Below, one piece after another: positions 2,159 to 50,635 of a stretch of 64,000 nucleotides of DNA. This DNA comes from Sipunculus nudus (taxonomy: Eukaryota > Annelida > Sipuncula > Golfingiida > Sipunculidae), in contig CM049307.1 of the NCBI GenBank assembly GCA_026874595.1, positions 73,260,643-73,324,642 on the forward strand, given 5' to 3'. The notes under the pieces were generated by a model that saw nothing but the letters and a program-made list of their open reading frames with translations, made no database searches and was not told the origin of the DNA. Positions within the stretch are counted from its first letter, which is position 1. Each line of letters begins with the position of its first letter. The translations under genes were made by a program, and so were the position numbers.

Positions 2159-2603
2159 ATTTTAACCAAAAACAATAGGGCACCTAGAAATTATGTTTTT
2201 CATCATCCCTGCAAGTTTCAAGGTGATTGTGGCAAAATTGTGGCCAGGAGAGTGCAGACAAACAAACAAACTAGACGACCAGAGGTCGAACGCTTGCCGG
2301 AAGTTGAAATGACAGACAGATGGACAGACAGAACATATTGTGGGGTTTCTATTATTTGAATGACCCTCAGCGTTTGCTGAGAAGTTGTGGCCTGTAAAAT
2401 GACATATCAGACAAAACAACGAGGAAGCAGACAAAGCTGACCACAAAAGACTAACAGACAAACATACTGACACATCTGTGATAACAGATTGCCAGACAAA
2501 AGTGCCGAAGGCAAAGAAGAGCAAAATTAGCGATGGTTTATGTAGATAAGGTTTATAATTTTGGAGATATGGCCAAAACATGATATGTTGGGGAGGTGAA
2601 GGT

Positions 2604-2621
2604 GCAGCGCCCCCTAGTGGC
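2604..2621 (-). promoter_or_regulatory. CTCF-consensus-like site in satellite unit
   Basis: The minus strand reads GCCACTAGGGGGCGCTGC, which fits the animal CTCF core consensus (RCCASYAGRKGGCRSYV) at every position. Related sites at 133-146, 1394-1410, 1849-1867 and 2939-2958 of the first unit fit with one to three mismatches and all point the same way. Each recurs in the next units. Confidence 0.45.
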
Positions 2622-5600
2622 TATATCCGGAAAATGAAAAATCTGTTTTGAGATATTAGTGAAACACATAAGATGTACCAGTTTTAAAAGGATTCCTGAA
2701 AAAAAACTGTGGCCTGTAGAATGCTATATATGAGACGCAAGAACCAGCAAGTAGGCGGATTTGAGGACAACTGACAAACAGACAGACACACTGACAAAGT
2801 CATACAAGAATTAGACCAGATGACATTACTAGGTCATGGAGAAGACTCAGGGAAAGAAAATAAGCCATAGTTTCTGTAATTGAGGCTTTGGGTTTTAGAG
2901 ATATGGTTAATATAATGATATGTGTGTGAGGGTCAGGTGCAGCGCCACCTAGCGGCCCTATCCGGAAAATGAAAAAAAAATTGTGAGATATTTTTGTAAA
3001 ATATAATATGCATCAGTTTTCAAATGCTTCTTTAAAAACTGTGGCCTGTAGAATGCTATATGCGAGACGCAAGAATCAGCATGCAGCCAAATTTGAGGAC
3101 AACTGACAAACAGACGGACACACTGACAAAGTGACACAAGATTGAGACCAGATGACATTATCAGTTTATGGAGAAGACTCAGAGGGAAAAAATAAGCTAT
3201 AGTTTATGTGATTAAGGCTTTGGGTTTTAGAGATATGGCCAATGTAATGATATGTGTGTGAGGGTCGTATGCAGCGCCCCCTAGCAGTAATATTCAAAAA
3301 ATGAAAAAACGATTTCGAGATACTAGTGTAGGACTTATGATATGTTAGTTTCAAAATGATTCCTGCAATAATGTGGCCTTTGGCGCAAGATGAATGAAAT
3401 CTCGAAATATCTCTATTCACGAGATATTTTACGAGATACTGCAAGACTTGTAATACAATCTTGTAGTACTAGTTGAATGCTACCTGATGCAAAAAACTTG
3501 ATTACTCTAGCTTTAAAACTGACAAAGTTAGGAAAATAAGACCCCTTATTTTCGAATATCATGACTTTTCCCCAAAATTTGTAACCATGGTTACGGCAAA
3601 TTTGAGTCAGCTACACACCAGATGACAGGCCTTGGAATGACGATTAAAATGAGCTATTGTTGAAGTAGATATGACTATTAGTCACAAAGATATGAAGAAA
3701 AAACCGTTTTGAGAAGTTTTGATGACCTTGACCTTGACCTTTGACCTATTTTGACCAAAAACAATAGGGCACCTAGAAATTTAATTCTCCATCATCTCTG
3801 AAAGTTTCAAGGTGATTGTGGCAAAATTGTGCTTGCCGGAATCAAAGATTTCCGGCAAGCAACAAACAGACAAACAGACATACGCAACTGAGCAATATGC
3901 TTGCCGAAATCGAACATTTCCGGCAAGCAATAAAGTTGTGACTGTGCCTCCAACATGTATCATAATAGACAGGGCCCGGAAAGGCCGTCACGCACCGCTG
4001 CACACGCCGGCCGCCCACCGTAGGGACCCTGCCGGCACTTGCGGCGACGGCACGTGACTTCGTGGTTTGGTGAAACACGGCGCGAGATTTGACGAGACTT
4101 ACAATGCGACCCCTGAATGTGACTGCGAGTGTCCGACGCTATCCGGCGCTGCAGACCATGTGTCTGTGGCGTAAAAAATGACAGAATTATAGGCATTTCT
4201 TTGAATGGTCACGTGTTCTCGTTTCACGAGAAACGATGCAAGATATGACGAGACTTGCGATTGAATGACTAAGAACTAGACGGATGCTGTCTAACGCCGA
4301 AAACCAGACCTTTCTATGGCAAATATCTACAGAGATAGAAGCAGGTAAACTTCGTATTTTCAAGTTGTCACGTTTTACCCCAAAATTTGGTAACCATGGT
4401 AACGGCAGTACAAAGCTACATGTGCGGAGGAATAAGCCAATGTTCCTAGTTTCAGATACCACAAAAAAATGGTGTCACGTTTAATATTTTTTGAGATATT
4501 GCAGAAAAATGATATGTTACAGTGTTTCAGGTACCACGCCCCCTGGTGGCTATTTCCAAAAAATGAAAAACTGATTTCGAGATATTTATAAAATAACACA
4601 AAATATATCAATTTCAAAGCCATTGTTAAAAAAATGCAACCTGTAGGTCATATTTAATGAAATCTCGAAGACTCTCGTTTGACGAGAAAAGGTGCGAGAT
4701 TTTGCAAGATTTTTGATTGGATCACCGAGAACTCACCAAGGGCTACAAGATGCAAAAAAATTGACCTCTCCAGCATAAAAACTGACAGAGTTAGAAGCTG
4801 AAAACTGCATATTTTCAAAATTCAAAAGTTTTACCCCAAAAATAGAGAAATCTGGCAATAGCGCACTTTGGCACCTATGCGCAAAAATAAGCCCATGGTA
4901 CCCAGTTGAAGGTGCTGTGATGGAAATGGCCCAATGTTTAATAGTTCTGGAGGTATAGCACGAAAACAAATTTTCATGTTTTTTCATCTGCAACGCCCCC
5001 CGGCGGCCATTTCCAAAATCTGAAAAAACAATTTCGAGATATTCTTGTGTTACATAAAATATCTCAGAATCAGTACGATTGCTGCAAATTTGAAAAATAT
5101 CACGAAATTCCATGATTTCTCCCCAAAATTGCGTAACCATGGTAACAGCAAATTTAAGTTAGCTACATGTCAAAAGAAAGGCCAGGTGATGACGAAAAAA
5201 ATGAGCTGTTGCAGAAGTGGATAAGCCTATTTATGGCGAAGTTATAGTGCAAAAACCGTTAACCATACCTGTCGTGACCTTGACCTTTGACCTTTGACCT
5301 ATTTTAACCAAAAACAATAGGGCACCTAGAAATTATGTTTTTCATCATCCCTGCAAGTTTCAAGGTGATTGTGGCAAAATTGTGGCCAGGAGAGTGCAGA
5401 CAAACAAACAAACTAGACGACCAGAGGTCGAACGCTTGCCGGAAGTTGAAATGACAGACAGATGGACAGACAGAACATATTGTGGGGTTTCTATTATTTG
5501 AATGACCCTCAGCGTTTGCTGAGAAGTTGTGGCCTGTAAAATGACATATCAGACAAAACAACGAGGAAGCAGACAAAGCTGACCACAAAAGACTAACAGA

Positions 5601-8552
5601 CAAACATACTGACACATCTGTGATAACAGATTGCCAGACAAAAGTGCCGAAGGCAAAGAAGAGCAAAATTAGCGATGGTTTATGTAGATAAGGTTTATAA
5701 TTTTGGAGATATGGCCAAAACATGATATGTTGGGGAGGTGAAGGTGCAGCGCCCCCTAGTGGCTATATCCGGAAAATGAAAAATCTGTTTTGAGATATTA
5801 GTGAAACCCATAAGATGTACCAGTTTTAAAAGGATTCCTGAAAAAAAACTGTGGCCTGTAGAATGCTATATTTGAGACGCAAGAACCAGCAAGTAGGCGG
5901 ATTTGAGGACAACTGACAAACAGACAGACACACTGACAAAGTCATACAAGAATTAGACCAGATGACATTACTAGGTCATGGAGAAGACTCAGGGAAAGAA
6001 AATAAGCCATAGTTTCTGTAATTGAGGCTTTGGGTTTTAGAGATATGGTTAATATAATGATATGTGTGTGAGGGTCAGGTGCAGCGCCACCTAGCGGCCC
6101 TATCCGGAAAATGAAAAAAAAATTGTGAGATATTTTTGTAAAATATAATATGCATCAGTTTTCAAATGCTTCTTTAAAAACTGTGGCCTGTAGAATGCTA
6201 TATGCGAGACGCAAGAATCAGCATGCAGCCAAATTTGAGGACAACTGACAAACAGACGGACACACTGACAAAGTGACACAAGATTGAGACCAGATGACAT
6301 TATCAGTTTATGGAGAAGACTCAGAGGGAAAATATAAGCTATAGTTTATGTGATTAAGGCTTTGGGTTTTAGAGATATGGCCAATGTAATGATATGTGTG
6401 TGAGGGTCGTATGCAGCGCCCCCTAGCAGTAATATTCAAAAAATGAAAAAACGATTTCGAGATACTAGTGTAGGACTTATGATATGTTAGTTTCAAAATG
6501 ATTCCTGCAATAATGTGGCCTTTGGCGCAAGATGAATGAAATCTCGAAATATCTCTATTCACGAGATATTTTACGAGATACTGCAAGACTTGTAATACAA
6601 TCTTGTAGTACTAGTTGAATGCTACCTGATGCAAAAAACTTGATTACTCTAGCTTTAAAACTGACAAAGTTAGGAAAATAAGACCCCTTATTTTCGAATA
6701 TCATGACTTTTCCCCAAAATTTGTAACCATGGTTACGGCAAATTTGAGTCAGCTACACACCAGATGACAGGCCTTGGAATGACGATTAAAATGAGCTATT
6801 GTTGAAGTAGATATGACTATTAGTCACAAAGATATGAAGAAAAAACCGTTTTGAGAAGTTTTGATGACCTTGACCTTGACCTTTGACCTATTTTGACCAA
6901 AAACAATAGGGCACCTAGAAATTTAATTCTCCATCATCTCTGAAAGTTTCAAGGTGATTGTGGCAAAATTGTGCTTGCCGGAATCAAAGATTTCCGGCAA
7001 GCAACAAACAGACAAACAGACATACGCAACTGAGCAATATGCTTGCCGAAATCGAACATTTCCGGCAAGCAATAAAGTTGTGACTGTGCCTCCAACATGT
7101 ATGATAATAGACAGGGCCCGGAAAGGCCGTCACGCACCGCTGCACACGCCGGCCGCCCACCGTAGGGACCCTGCCGGCACTTGCGGCGACGGCACGTGAC
7201 TTCGTGGTTTGGTGAAACACGGCGCGAGATTTGACGAGACTTACAATGCGACCCCTGAATGTGACTGCGAGTGTCCGACGCTATCCGGCGCTGCAGACCA
7301 TGTGTCTGTGGCGTAAAAAATGACAGAATTATAGGCATTTCTTTGAATGGTCACGTGTTCTCGTTTCACGAGAAACGATGCAAGATATGACGAGACTTGC
7401 GATTGAATGACTAAGAACTAGACGGATGCTGTCTAACGCCGAAAACCAGACCTTTCTATGGCAAATATCTACAGAGATAGAAGCAGGTAAACTTCGTATT
7501 TTCAAGTTGTCACGTTTTACCCCAAAATTTGGTAACCATGGTAACGGCAGTACAAAGCTACATGTGCGGAGGAATAAGCCAATGTTCCTAGTTTCAGATA
7601 CCACAAAAAAATGGTGTCACGTTTAATATTTTTTGAGATATTGCAGAAAAATGATATGTTACAGTGTTTCAGGTACCACGCCCCCTGGTGGCTATTTCCA
7701 AAAAATGAAAAACTGATTTCGAGATATTTATAAAATAACACAAAATATATCAATTTCAAAGCCATTGTTAAAAAAATGCAACCTGTAGGTCATATTTAAT
7801 GAAATCTCGAAGACTCTCGTTTGACGAGAAAAGGTGCGAGATTTTGCAAGATTTTTGATTGGATCACCGAGAACTCACCAAGGGCTACAAGATGCAAAAA
7901 AATTGACCTCTCCAGCATAAAAACTGACAGAGTTAGAAGCTGAAAACTGCATATTTTCAAAATTCAAAAGTTTTACCCCAAAAGTAGAGAAATCTGGCAA
8001 TAGCGCACTTTGGCACCTATGCGCAAAAATAAGCCCATGGTACCCAGTTGAAGGTGCTGTGATGGAAATGGCCCAATGTTTAATAGTTCTGGAGGTATAG
8101 CACCAAAACAAATGTTCATGTTTTTTCATCTGCAACGCCCCCTGGCGGCCATTTCCAAAATCTGAAAAAACAATTTCGAGATATTCTTGTGTTACATAAA
8201 ATATCTCAGAATCAGTACGATTGCTGCAAATTTGAAAAATATCACGAAATTCCATGATTTCTACCCAAAATTGCGTAACCATGGTAACAGCAAATTTAAG
8301 TAAGCTACATGTCAAAAGAAAGGCCAGGTGATGACGAAAAAAATGAGCTATTGCAGAAGTGGATAAGCCTATTTATGGCGAAGTTATAGTGCAAAAACCG
8401 TTAACCATACCTGTCGTGACCTTGACCTTTGACCTTCGACCTATTTTAACCAAAAACAATAGGGCACCTAGAAATTATGTTTTTCAACATCCCTGTAAGT
8501 TTCAAGGTGATTGTGGCAAAATTGTGGCCAGGAGAGTGCAGACAAACAAACA

Positions 8553-17420: not shown

Positions 17421-18063
17421 ACACCTCATTCTATTCCCCTTGCCACTTAATCCATGCCTCACTTCACCCGTCCCACTCTGATTTCTACAGATACACATAG
17501 TCGCTTGTCGACTACCCATATTCTAGTTTAAACATGTCCTAATCTGAAACTTGCAGGTCTGAAATGTCCATTTTGCTATAATAATAATGACTAAGGTAGA
17601 TATGCAGGACTTAAGAGGATCAATATTAAATTTTAAAAATAAACCTCCATTCATACTCCCAAACTTTGCACAGGTTCGCGTTAGGCCTGTAGGCCATGAT
17701 TTCTGGCGAGATAACTTGAAAAATCTGTCACGGATTTTTACCAAACTTTTAATACCCATTTCATTCTACATGAAAGTACTGTGAGCATTATATGTAAAAA
17801 AATAATGGACTGAGATCTTTTATATTATATATATACATAGATATAGTTTATGGGATGAGGTATATGTAAATTGGGATCAAGACCTCTCCTATGAGAGTGG
17901 CCTTGGCCTTGAAAATTTCCATATCTGGTGAAAAAGTTTATAGATGGAACCATGGTCGAAACAAAGTGTCAGTGTATGCTGCTGAAGATGGGGGTCTCTT
18001 CTTAAGGGGGGGGGGTTAATTATCTGGGGATGTTATGGCACCTCCGGTGCCAAGAAATTCTAG

Positions 18064-21895: not shown

Positions 21896-22225
21896 CTCTA
21901 CAAGTATGAAACGGTACCGAATTAAAGAGGATCCGGTTTAACGTAAACATAACTAGGTTTATGTGCACGTGCTCCTTAACAATATTAATCTGCAGAGGCA
22001 GAAAATCTTATTCTACTGGGTGTAATCTTATATGTGTCTTGGCCGTTTGATTCTGCGCCTAGTCTTGATGTGCGTCTTTTGCTCAGGGTCACTCTGTGAT
22101 GTCTGGTCAGTAGGTGTGGTAGACGGCTTTTCTGGTCCAGCTGGCCTTTTACATCTAGATTCTTAGTACTGTGAGCATTATCAGTAAAAAAACTAATGGA
22201 CAGATTTCTTTCATATTATGCATAT

Positions 22226-22632
22226 TGTAACGAAGACAAATAAATGAGGGGAAAATCCTGGGTCGATCCGGGAGTCGAACGCAGGTCGGTGGCCACAAAG
22301 AAAAGCATGCTTCACTAGCGAGACAGTTCGGTCGGTTTTTATGTCACCCCGTAACACAACCCCTCTTAAGAGCATTCTGCTATCAGAACAAGACTAATTA
22401 TTCCAGGAGTCACACTTTGGTGAGCTTATTCCCTTGGCCACAAAGTTAACCGTCACGTTAGACGAGCCCCCATTTTGTTACGAAGGCAAATTGTTGAGGG
22501 GGAAAATCCTGGGCCGATCCGGGAGTCGAACCCAGGTCGGTGGCGAACAAGTCCGGCGTCCCAACCGCTTCGCTAGAAAAGCAAGCTTCACCAGCGAGAC
22601 AGTTCGGTCCGTTTTTATGTCACCCCGTAACA
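22226..22632 (-). mobile_element. TRIM: miniature LTR retroelement with tRNA-like LTRs
   Basis: Two direct repeats (22,226-22,356 and 22,476-22,632) with TG...CA ends flank 119 bp. Read on the minus strand, the 5' LTR is followed after AAA by TGGGGGCTCGTC (22,461-22,472), which matches the first 12 bases of a tRNA-Pro primer binding site. The 3' LTR is preceded by a purine tract AAGAGGGGTTG (22,357-22,367). A 4-bp duplication ATAT flanks the element (22,222-22,225; 22,633-22,636). The related Helitron copy at about 35,790-35,805 preserves the empty site, which confirms the borders. No gag or pol is present, so mobility would need proteins from elsewhere. The two LTRs differ by point changes and a central deletion in the 3' one. 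Confidence 0.85.
22476..22632 (-). repeat. 5' LTR of the TRIM with pol III-type A and B boxes
   Basis: On the minus strand this 157-bp LTR holds TAGCGAAGCGG, fitting the tRNA A box, and GGTTCGACTCC, fitting the B box, with a T-arm-like stem CTGGG/CCCGG around the latter. A full acceptor stem is not seen. Cassandra elements of plants carry 5S rRNA in their LTRs; here the passenger looks like a tRNA. The 131-bp partner (22,226-22,356) keeps the B box (with GCGTTCGACTCC) but has lost the A-box region. Confidence 0.7.
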
Positions 22633-22979
22633 ATATTCATAGGTATGGGTTATTGGAAGATGACTATTTAAATTAGGGTCATGCTCTTTCACATGATGGT
22701 GACCTTGACCTTGAATATTACAATATATGATGGAAATCACACAAAATCATAAATATTTCAATAAGGGATGCATGGTTTGATTCAAAAATCAAATTGACCG
22801 ATGATCTTAAATAACTTTGTCTTCTGTCGAAGACACGTGGCGCCAACTTTGTCCTTTTCTTGTTTTTGCGCCTTCTAATACCCCATCATTACCACTTGAC
22901 AGTACTGTGAACATTATAAGTCAAAAACTAATGGACAGATTGGGCATTGCCATTCTTTTTGGATACCTCCATCTTGTAC

Positions 22980-35450: not shown

Positions 35451-36811
35451 TATTTCACTGTTACCGATCTTTACAAAACTTGACATGTGCAAAGATATGG
35501 ATGAGAGGATAAAAATATTGTAAATGAGAACATAATCTGACCTTGATCTTGAATAGGGCCATTTTGGGAAAAATCACACAAATCTTTAATATCTCAAGAA
35601 ATCTTGCATGGATTGATCCTATAATCAAGATGACCAAAGATCTTGGATTGTATTGTGATGTACCGGAAACTGGTGGCGCCACTTTTTACCCTTTTCTTGT
35701 TTTCGTGCTGTTTAATACCCTCATCAATGCAACTTGACAGTAGTGTGAGCATTATTAGTCAAAAGCTAATGGACAGATTTCTTTCATATTATGAATATAC
35801 ATAGGCATGGATTTTGTGATGATGTATATTTAAACTGGGGTCATGAATTTTCCTATGAGAGTGGCCTTGACCATGAATAATACCATATATGGTGAAATCC
35901 CACAAAATTATAAATATCTCAATAGGGGATGCAGGGATTGATCCAAAAATCAAATTGACTGAAGATCTTGGATAGTTTTGACTTCTGCGGAAGACACGTG
36001 GCGCCATCTGCTGTCCTTATCTTGTTTTCGCGCCTTTTGTTACTCCATCATTGCTTCTTGACAGTACTGTGAGCATTTTAAGTCAAAACTAATGGACAGA
36101 TTGGGCTGATATTGTGCATGTGCATTGAAATTGAATACCTCCATCTTATATTCAAGACTGGTAACGCCATCTGCAATCGTTTTTGTGTGGCGTCCGTCCG
36201 TACGTTTGCTTTCAGTGAAAATTGCTCACATCTCAGGAGTGGTTCAAAGTATTTGTCTGTAATTTGGCATGTCCATCCATCTTGGAAAGTTTTCTCGTAA
36301 CCCGGACAGGTGGCGCCACCTACCTTCCATTTTTTTAGAATAAATTAATACCCTTTTCTCAGAAGTGATTTGCCCTATTGGCCTGAAATTGTACATATCC
36401 ATAGATCTTGGACTCGTCCATCTTGTACTCAAGACTGGTGGCGCCATCTGCAATGGTTTTCCCGTGGCTTCCATCTGTACATGTGCTTTGGGTGAAAATT
36501 GCTCATATCACCGGAGTGGTTAGAGGTATTGGTCTTAAATTTGGCATGTCCATACATCTTTGAATATGTTCTTTTAAACCAGACAGATGGCGCCACCTAC
36601 CTCACCATTTTTATAGTATAAATTAATCCACTTTTCTCAAGAGTGATTCACCATATTGGCCCCAATATTTGGTGAAAAATATTGTTGAAAGATGGAAGAA
36701 ACCTTGGTCACTTGCCAAGTGTCAGTATACGCTGCTGTAGATGGGGGGGGGGGGGGGGCATTAATTGTCTGGGGATACTATGGCACCTGCGAGGTGCCAA
36801 GATATGTCTAG
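35451..36811 (+). mobile_element. Non-autonomous Helitron-like element, copy 3
   Basis: It ends with an 8-bp stem TGGCACCT/AGGTGCCA (36,781-36,799), eight bases, CTAG (36,808-36,811) and T. A G-run (about 36,743-36,758) lies shortly before the stem as in the other two copies. It includes two dimers of the 278-bp repeat (cores at 36,157, 36,309, 36,435 and 36,588) and the uninterrupted counterpart of the TRIM target near 35,795. The 5' limit is uncertain. Confidence 0.6.
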
Positions 36812-48890: not shown

Positions 48891-50450
48891 GACTTGATCC
48901 TGGTCAGTGCTTTGAATCAATCAGATGTCTTCTGGACCTGAAAGAAACCCTAATGGCAACAATAAAACTGGAGGGGGGCCAAAGCAGCACAAATCCCCGG
49001 CCCCTGGAGTATTACCGCCTGATTTTCTCGCCCCTGACCACAGCCGAGCAAAACAACCACCAACTCCAACCAAAACCAAATTTACAACTCCAGACCAAAG
49101 ACCGAGGGAACCTTCACCGACGTCAGTTAACGATATACCCTCACGGAAGTCAAGCATTTCAAGCGAACAGTCAGATTCACCAATCAGGCAAGGTCAACCT
49201 GAACTCTCCATCTTTGCTTCATCTGCGGCCGGGAGTTACAGTGACGTGGATTCTATCTCCGATGGAGCAAGTCTTGGTCCTCTGGACTTGGAAATAGATG
49301 ATGTGACAGAGGATGACAAAAGCTCCACCTATTCCTTTGACAAACGCCTACATTATGGTATTCTGATCGCAAATATGAATTTGATGTGCATGCGTCATGA
49401 GCTGGTGGACGTTCACATACACTCAAGTGATCTTAAAGTTCTGTCTGCTCACAAAGTACTGATCGCAGCACAGAGCAGTCTATTTGCTGATTTATTCCGT
49501 TCTTTTTCCAATGCTAATCTGTATCTTCAAAACACACCCCGCGTAGTTCTGGAAGCCCTCCATACGTACCTGTACAAACCTGGCAAAGCACTCAACCATA
49601 AGAACTGGGATGCCATTTTGGATTTTGCCTCTTCATTTGGGATAGGAAACATGGTGAACGGAGTTGGTGACGCTGTGGATACCATGACAATGGTGCAATC
49701 AATGTATGAGGCGTGTTCCTTGACCTTGACAGCCCTCCAGGCTCGAGCTGCAACTGGAGATATTGTTGGAATAGTCCAAGCGCACGCATGTGTGGTCGCA
49801 GCTGCGTCACCGAAGATCCTGGCGCTACTCTACGCGGGGCCGTGTGTCGTCTCGGATCACGTGGCTTTAGACATGAGCAGCCGAACCGTCCTCTGCAGCC
49901 TTGTCGATTTCATATACTCCGGAAGTCTGGTTGTGGCAGACGACACCGCCCAAGAGCTACTACAGGTGGCTTCTCGCTATGAGATACCGTCTGTCGCAAG
50001 AGCCTGCATTCATTTTATCACTCAAAAAATGAAACCAACAAATGTCGTAGGTATCATCCACCTTGCCCAACATTTGGTAGACGAATCTGAAAGCGACTGG
50101 TCGGAGCTCTATGAGAATCTCTTAGCTGAAGGGGAGGATTTTTTGGCTAGTAATCTCCAGGAAGTGCTTGAAGAAAGTGATGAATTTTTGAGTCTCTCAG
50201 AGGAGCAACTTCTCCGTTGTTTAACTTCCAGGCAGGAAGTCCCGGTTTGTTTGTTGGTTGATAAACTGATAGAGTGGCGACGTCACAGACCCGATGAACG
50301 ACTCAGTGCTGCGCAACTTGCTCACACCATTGTCACGCTCACGTGGTCCAGGAGCCGAGATCTCATGCGTGATACCTTCAACAGGTATTTTAACGATGGT
50401 CCCGCCGATTTAGTGGACGAACTGCTCGACAACATTGCAGTCTTGAGTAC
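48891..50450 (+). CDS. Double BTB/POZ plus BACK domain protein, large coding exon
   Basis: The exon begins after TTATTTTTTCAG at 48,890. ATG at 48,925 is the first in frame; TGA at 48,913 closes the frame upstream. Residues 1-140 are disordered (Pro/Ser/Lys-rich, then acidic). About 143-250 and 255-365 fit two BTB/POZ folds: VDVHIHS...LSAHKVLIAAQSSLF, and AHACVVAAASPKILALL...VDFIYSGSLVV...ASRYEIPSVARAC. About 366-455 fits BACK: NVVGIIHLAQHL...NLQEVLEESDEFLSLSEEQLL. BTB-BACK proteins usually act as cullin-3 substrate adaptors, often with C-terminal Kelch repeats; none are seen here. The frame reads on to TAA at 50,452-50,454, but this lies within AC|GTAAGT, a consensus donor at 50,451. Either the 509-residue form is complete, or splicing extends it. 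Confidence 0.9.
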
Positions 50451-50635
50451 GTAAGTAGCTATGACAGCCAAAAGGACTGTTAAATGCACAATAAGAGTCC
50501 GTCCATAGATATGTTAAAATAAGATAGCTCTCACAGAGTGCATACCCTCGCCAGTGGCAAGCAGACCATGTATCTGTGTTTGAGTATATGGTGTTCAGTG
50601 GTTGATCTGGGGTGTAGGCCTTCGCGTGTTTGTAT

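Follow-up and report, generated by a model that had tools for sequence, protein, structure and literature searches.

A short LTR retrotransposon with tRNA-like promoter boxes in its LTRs and a candidate tRNA-Pro primer site in Sipunculus nudus

Structure of the element

The window analysed here is a stretch of 64,000 nucleotides (C2:73260643-73324642) from a 1.43-Gb, 153-contig assembly of Sipunculus nudus. At 22226-22632 on its minus strand lies a complete TRIM of 407 bp, made up of an LTR, an interior and a second LTR. The primer site follows the first LTR only on the minus strand, and the element is therefore read in that sense. The 5' LTR (22476-22632) is 157 bp long with TG...CA ends and is followed by an interior of 119 bp (22357-22475) in which no coding capacity was seen; none of the program-listed open reading frames of at least 150 amino acids in the window overlaps the element. 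The interior starts with AAA-TGGGGGCTCGTC, which places the primer-binding site TGGGGGCTCGTC (22461-22472, minus strand) 3 nt past the 5' LTR. This 12-mer, complementary to the 3' end of tRNA-Pro, is found once in the window and in 0/100 shuffles. The polypurine tract AAGAGGGG (22360-22367, minus strand) stands at the other end of the interior.

The preliminary description of this locus had spoken of a 157-bp LTR and of promoter-bearing LTRs, which is correct for the 5' LTR only: the 3' LTR (22226-22356, minus strand) is 131 bp long, has lost its A box and carries a short interior-like patch (TTTGTGGCC). This loss, a primer-site match of 12 nt and LTR-LTR substitutions of 0.107 mark the copy in the window as a decayed insertion. 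The sequence ATAT is present at both flanks (22222-22225 and 22633-22636) as a 4-bp target-site duplication, and the flanks, once joined through a single ATAT, align with two uninterrupted paralogues of the host repeat, the junction itself being free of gaps. One of these, at 35739-35993 on the plus strand (aligned part 35,739-35,897, 81%), is the empty-site relative that had been noticed near 35,795, while the second, more diverged, lies at 17775-17934, also on the plus strand (77%). The TG...CA direct repeats around a 119-bp interior, the 12-base primer-site match, the purine tract, the target duplication and the empty site thus all stand as first described.

Elsewhere in the window, tandem arrays with a common 332-bp unit occupy 2523-3379 and 5665-6521, about 3.1 kb apart, in what looks like a local duplication, and an open frame of 509 amino acids at 48925-50454 on the plus strand resembles, by eye, a BTB-domain protein.

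The family across the genome

The preliminary description had proposed a search of the same genome with the LTR, and such a search recovered a family of LTR-interior-LTR copies, solo LTRs and 4-bp duplications. In all, 137 loci were fetched as matches to four queries: the window copy brought 40, its 5' LTR another 29, and two interior sequences another 31 and 37. All 137 held the element. The first-look candidates for the four queries numbered 2955, 2575, 1347 and 825; these counts are unvalidated, and suggest a large family. Outer ends could be tested in 94 copies, 69 of which have a perfect 4-bp duplication, against a mean of 5.9 and a maximum of 13 in 1000 shuffles of the flanks. Solo LTRs make up four of the 29 LTR-query loci, three of them with a duplication.

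Among 143 interiors, the 12-nt core of the primer site is present in 106 and an 18-nt form, TGGGGGCTCGTCCGGGAT, presumably an exact complement of the 3' end of tRNA-Pro, in 31; the commonest interior end is TTAAGAGGGGGTG (94/143). A pattern of deletions confined to the 3' LTR, seen in 19 of the first 28 loci, was set aside as at least partly an effect of ascertainment, because the window-copy query itself lacks part of the 3' LTR. Loci seeded by the LTR have deleted 5' LTRs as well, and the interior-seeded loci with both ends, some of which are also window-copy matches, have deletions, as raw counts, in 7/35 5' LTRs and 14/39 3' LTRs.

Promoter-like boxes and resemblance to tRNA

The 5' LTR of the window copy holds, in order, the A-box-like TAGCGAAGCGG (LTR 58-68, 22565-22575), 32 bp, the B-box-like GGTTCGACTCC (LTR 101-111, 22522-22532), 15 bp and TTTT (LTR 127-130, 22503-22506), the last a candidate pol III terminator; all are on the minus strand. 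By direct count, and in the form tested, this is the one A/B pair of the window at tRNA-like spacing; it begins at 22575 on the minus strand. Across 241 LTRs of the family the exact A box is found in 158, the exact B box in 142 and both in 90, and a run of at least four T follows the B box, at LTR 120-137, in 215. The majority TAGCGAAGCGG starts with TAGCG and ends in YGG, and the majority GGTTCGACTCC has the GGTTC of box B. The boxes that had been described within the LTR are accordingly present in the 5' LTR here and in the majority of family LTRs, but the A box is missing from the 3' LTR of this copy.

Between the A box and the T-run (LTR 59-119), TTTT occurs in 5/241 LTRs, and it occurs in 9/143 interiors; AATAAA is found in 1/241 LTRs and 2/143 interiors. 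We infer from the boxes, the T-run and the rarity of AATAAA that the family would be transcribed by pol III. A TATA-like CATAAAA is also present at LTR 14-20 (22613-22619, minus strand), most copies (196/241 LTRs) having CATAAAAG, which would be usable by pol II. A further T-run stands directly upstream of the A box in 102/241 LTRs; a simple start-stop scheme leaves this unexplained, and it is a point against the explanation we favour below. The idea that 3' LTRs ending at the T-run are traces of RNA ends was rejected, such cases being too few, with AT-rich flanks and alignment-edge effects.

The preliminary description had also spoken of a tRNA-like part of the LTR. The boxes and their spacing fit this, but a match to a tRNA model does not accompany them: RF00005 matches neither the window nor any of the 10 loci scanned, and ARAGORN calls no tRNA gene in the window and none in 57 loci. 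The nearest tRNA-type match, to tRNA-Sec in one family locus (L061), is weak at 19.2 bits and E 5. At gathering score Rfam has no match in the window; the Rfam matches in the scanned loci all fell under the gathering scores and were dismissed. No 5S match at E<=10 was found in 22400-22660. In local alignments of the LTR with five tRNA genes of the assembly, of which at least two are bacterial-looking, the B-box region alone was aligned, with scores reached by 0, 1, 2, 4 and 37 of 500 shuffles and hence above nearly all of them in four of the five. Given this alignment and the lack of a tRNA model match, the recognisable part is the layout of a promoter and not a tRNA. As judged by eye from a per-site table the boxes are conserved no better than the rest of the LTR, so that selection on them is unsupported.

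Two observations were made on the tRNA genes of the assembly. One region (G000:C9:40605435-40699894) contains 46 of the 63 tRNA matches listed, many at a spacing of about 1.67 kb, and two members of this cluster read as tRNA-Lys (TTT). Smaller contigs (C115, C121, C61, C89 and others, of at most 3.3 Mb among those seen) also bear tRNA genes, some bacterial-looking and, in C115 and C121, with CCA encoded; these contigs may represent DNA of bacterial cobionts.

Mismatched LTRs and tandem arrays

The two LTRs of a fresh insertion are expected to be identical, with a linkage of 1 between their markers. We compared the LTRs at positions 56, 73-74, 87, 124/137, 139-141 and 147 in 45 single elements that the LTR and interior queries had newly yielded. 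Untypable markers were disregarded, and the pair counts exclude L099 and L147, which probably duplicate L098 and L146. At least one marker is discordant in 30/45 elements, and in 19/31, and the linkage within elements is 0.45. Mean LTR divergence is 0.104 within elements and 0.131 between them. The frequent difference in subtype between LTRs of one element suggests frequent strand transfer or template switching between co-packaged RNAs.

The tandem arrays tell a similar story. Eight arrays flanked by a duplication have interiors that differ by a mean of 0.080, where pairs drawn from separate loci differ by 0.070, and since array interiors are as different as random copies most arrays are not simple duplications; two (L009 and L002), with interior differences of 0.026 and 0.034, may be. 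Taken with the LTR mismatch, the mixed arrays suggest recombination between templates before integration. Two further candidate patterns were tried and rejected: a gradient of linkage toward the primer-site end is not significant in the loci from LTR and interior queries (difference CI [-0.16, 0.32]) and borderline over all 73 pairs (CI [-0.00, 0.42]), and linkage of interior type to either LTR reaches P<0.05 in 2/28 tests.

Alternative explanations

The preliminary description had named, as the outcome that would tell against an LTR element, tandem SINE copies that lack the interior, the primer site and the 4-bp duplications, or a family without the tRNA-like part. Interior, primer site and duplications all recur across the family, whose LTR majority also has both boxes. 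A tandem SINE family, to which the pol III-type boxes and the occurrence of tandem arrays would be congenial, is refuted by an interior with a primer site and purine tract, by TG...CA ends, by solo LTRs and by the 4-bp duplications, and we consider it extremely improbable. A plain pol II TRIM is a more serious proposition, although an unlikely one: here the CATAAAAG near LTR 14 would serve as a TATA box, and the A and B boxes would have no function, being left over from a SINE insertion or produced by convergence. The prevalence of that motif among the LTRs, the tRNA models without a match and the lack of visible excess conservation in the boxes, as judged by eye, are in its favour, but it must also accommodate two boxes set at tRNA spacing, with a T-run, in the LTR majority, and an AATAAA that is almost absent from LTRs and interiors alike.

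The main rival for the LTR mismatch and the mixed arrays is gene conversion between copies after insertion, which is possible without being, in our estimation, the probable cause. There are many similar copies to convert (the 2575 unvalidated first-look candidates of the LTR query), a target duplication can survive conversion, and an earlier set of 55 elements, which included biased loci, hinted that discordance was higher in older copies, going from 0.19 in the youngest third to 0.38 in the oldest, a non-significant change (P 0.13). In the larger set, from the LTR and interior queries, no such rise with private divergence was found (Spearman -0.06, P 0.70, 45 elements; 0.28, 0.19 and 0.28 in successive thirds), which argues against conversion. 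With template recombination before integration as the reading we prefer, a stronger statement can be ventured, which we hold tentatively and regard as rather doubtful: that the rule of LTRs identical at birth fails in this family, many short pol III RNAs being co-packaged, with strand transfers crossing to another molecule and staying on the same one at about equal rates, so that each insertion would be a mosaic, the arrays would be pre-integration concatemers of different parents and LTR divergence would be unusable for dating.

Proposed mechanism and significance

The best explanation, and one in which we place considerable confidence, is a Helenus-type TRIM, an LTR retrotransposon that is non-autonomous, with a proposed pol III and tRNA-Pro mechanism. 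The LTR-interior-LTR order, primer site, purine tract, 4-bp duplications, empty sites and A and B boxes with a T-run are directly observed. Transcription by RNA polymerase III would begin in the 5' LTR, slightly upstream of its A box. We speculate that the polymerase reads past the T-run that follows the B box there and terminates at the corresponding T-run in the 3' LTR. General knowledge of LTR elements, taken with this anatomy, implies that reverse transcription is primed by tRNA-Pro and that insertion is made by an integrase: the primer would be the cellular tRNA-Pro, an autonomous LTR element, by analogy one of the Gypsy type, would supply the reverse transcriptase, and the integrase of the same element would insert the cDNA and make the 4-bp duplication. 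Strand transfer or template switching among several co-packaged short RNAs would be seemingly frequent.

One further locus gives support to tRNA-primed reverse transcription through its structure. At L011:601-1160, an LTR-interior-LTR with 17 nt of primer site and an inverted LTR are joined within TCCGGGA, with CTGG at both outer ends; this single case looks like a snap-back product of reverse transcription integrated as a unit. It could have arisen when plus-strand strong-stop DNA copied the tRNA and folded back on its own LTR. In another locus (L069) an LTR abuts an inverted LTR end, with the join at position 97; the outer end lies outside the sequence fetched.

With this family, some copies of which have an 18-nt primer site, the pol III-promoter TRIMs gain a well-sampled member, and the snap-back by-product would be a fossil of reverse transcription primed by a tRNA. 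Should the LTR mismatch arise before integration, it offers a readout of template sharing in the particle from the genome alone, and a warning against LTR dating of very short elements; if this is true and general for TRIMs, short length would itself be the cause of mosaic insertions.

Comparison with known elements

The preliminary description had compared the element with Cassandra, a plant TRIM. The idea of a TRIM with a pol III promoter is common to both, as are tandem LTR-interior arrays, which for Cassandra are discussed together with template switching by Kalendar (2020); the promoter of Cassandra, however, is derived from 5S rRNA, and no 5S match is seen in our element. The nemertean TRIM Ajax shares the TRIMp3 idea, but it has a 5S-derived promoter and a 5-bp TSD. 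The bivalve biv-TRIM of Satovic (2019, PMC6934838) is likewise a TRIM with solo ends and tandem arrays, but has ends of 202-218 bp and an interior of 77-80 bp (here 157 and 119), mostly GGGGAGA as its PPT and no clear PBS, as opposed to AAGAGGGG and a clear PBS here.

A closer and already published counterpart is Helenus (TRIMp3), the name given by Kojima (2024, PMC10886601) to TRIMs with tRNA-like LTRs; our literature search on TRIMp3, and on Helenus with retrotransposon and tRNA, found no other relevant paper. According to that report, Helenus has 51 families found in pteriomorph bivalves, has a 4-bp TSD in animals with tRNA-Pro among the bivalve primers, attains high copy number in some species and forms tandem arrays in the case of zebrafish LTR-11_DR; its pol III transcription is described there as unvalidated. 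The family reported here is alike in its tRNA-like LTR boxes, a PBS for a tRNA 3' end, a PPT, a 4-bp TSD and arrays. It is unlike in its box A, which begins TAGCG where that report gives TRGCY for most Helenus families, though not all, and in that tRNA models have no match here. Placed by this described architecture, the element of Sipunculus nudus fits a new family of a known kind, Helenus.
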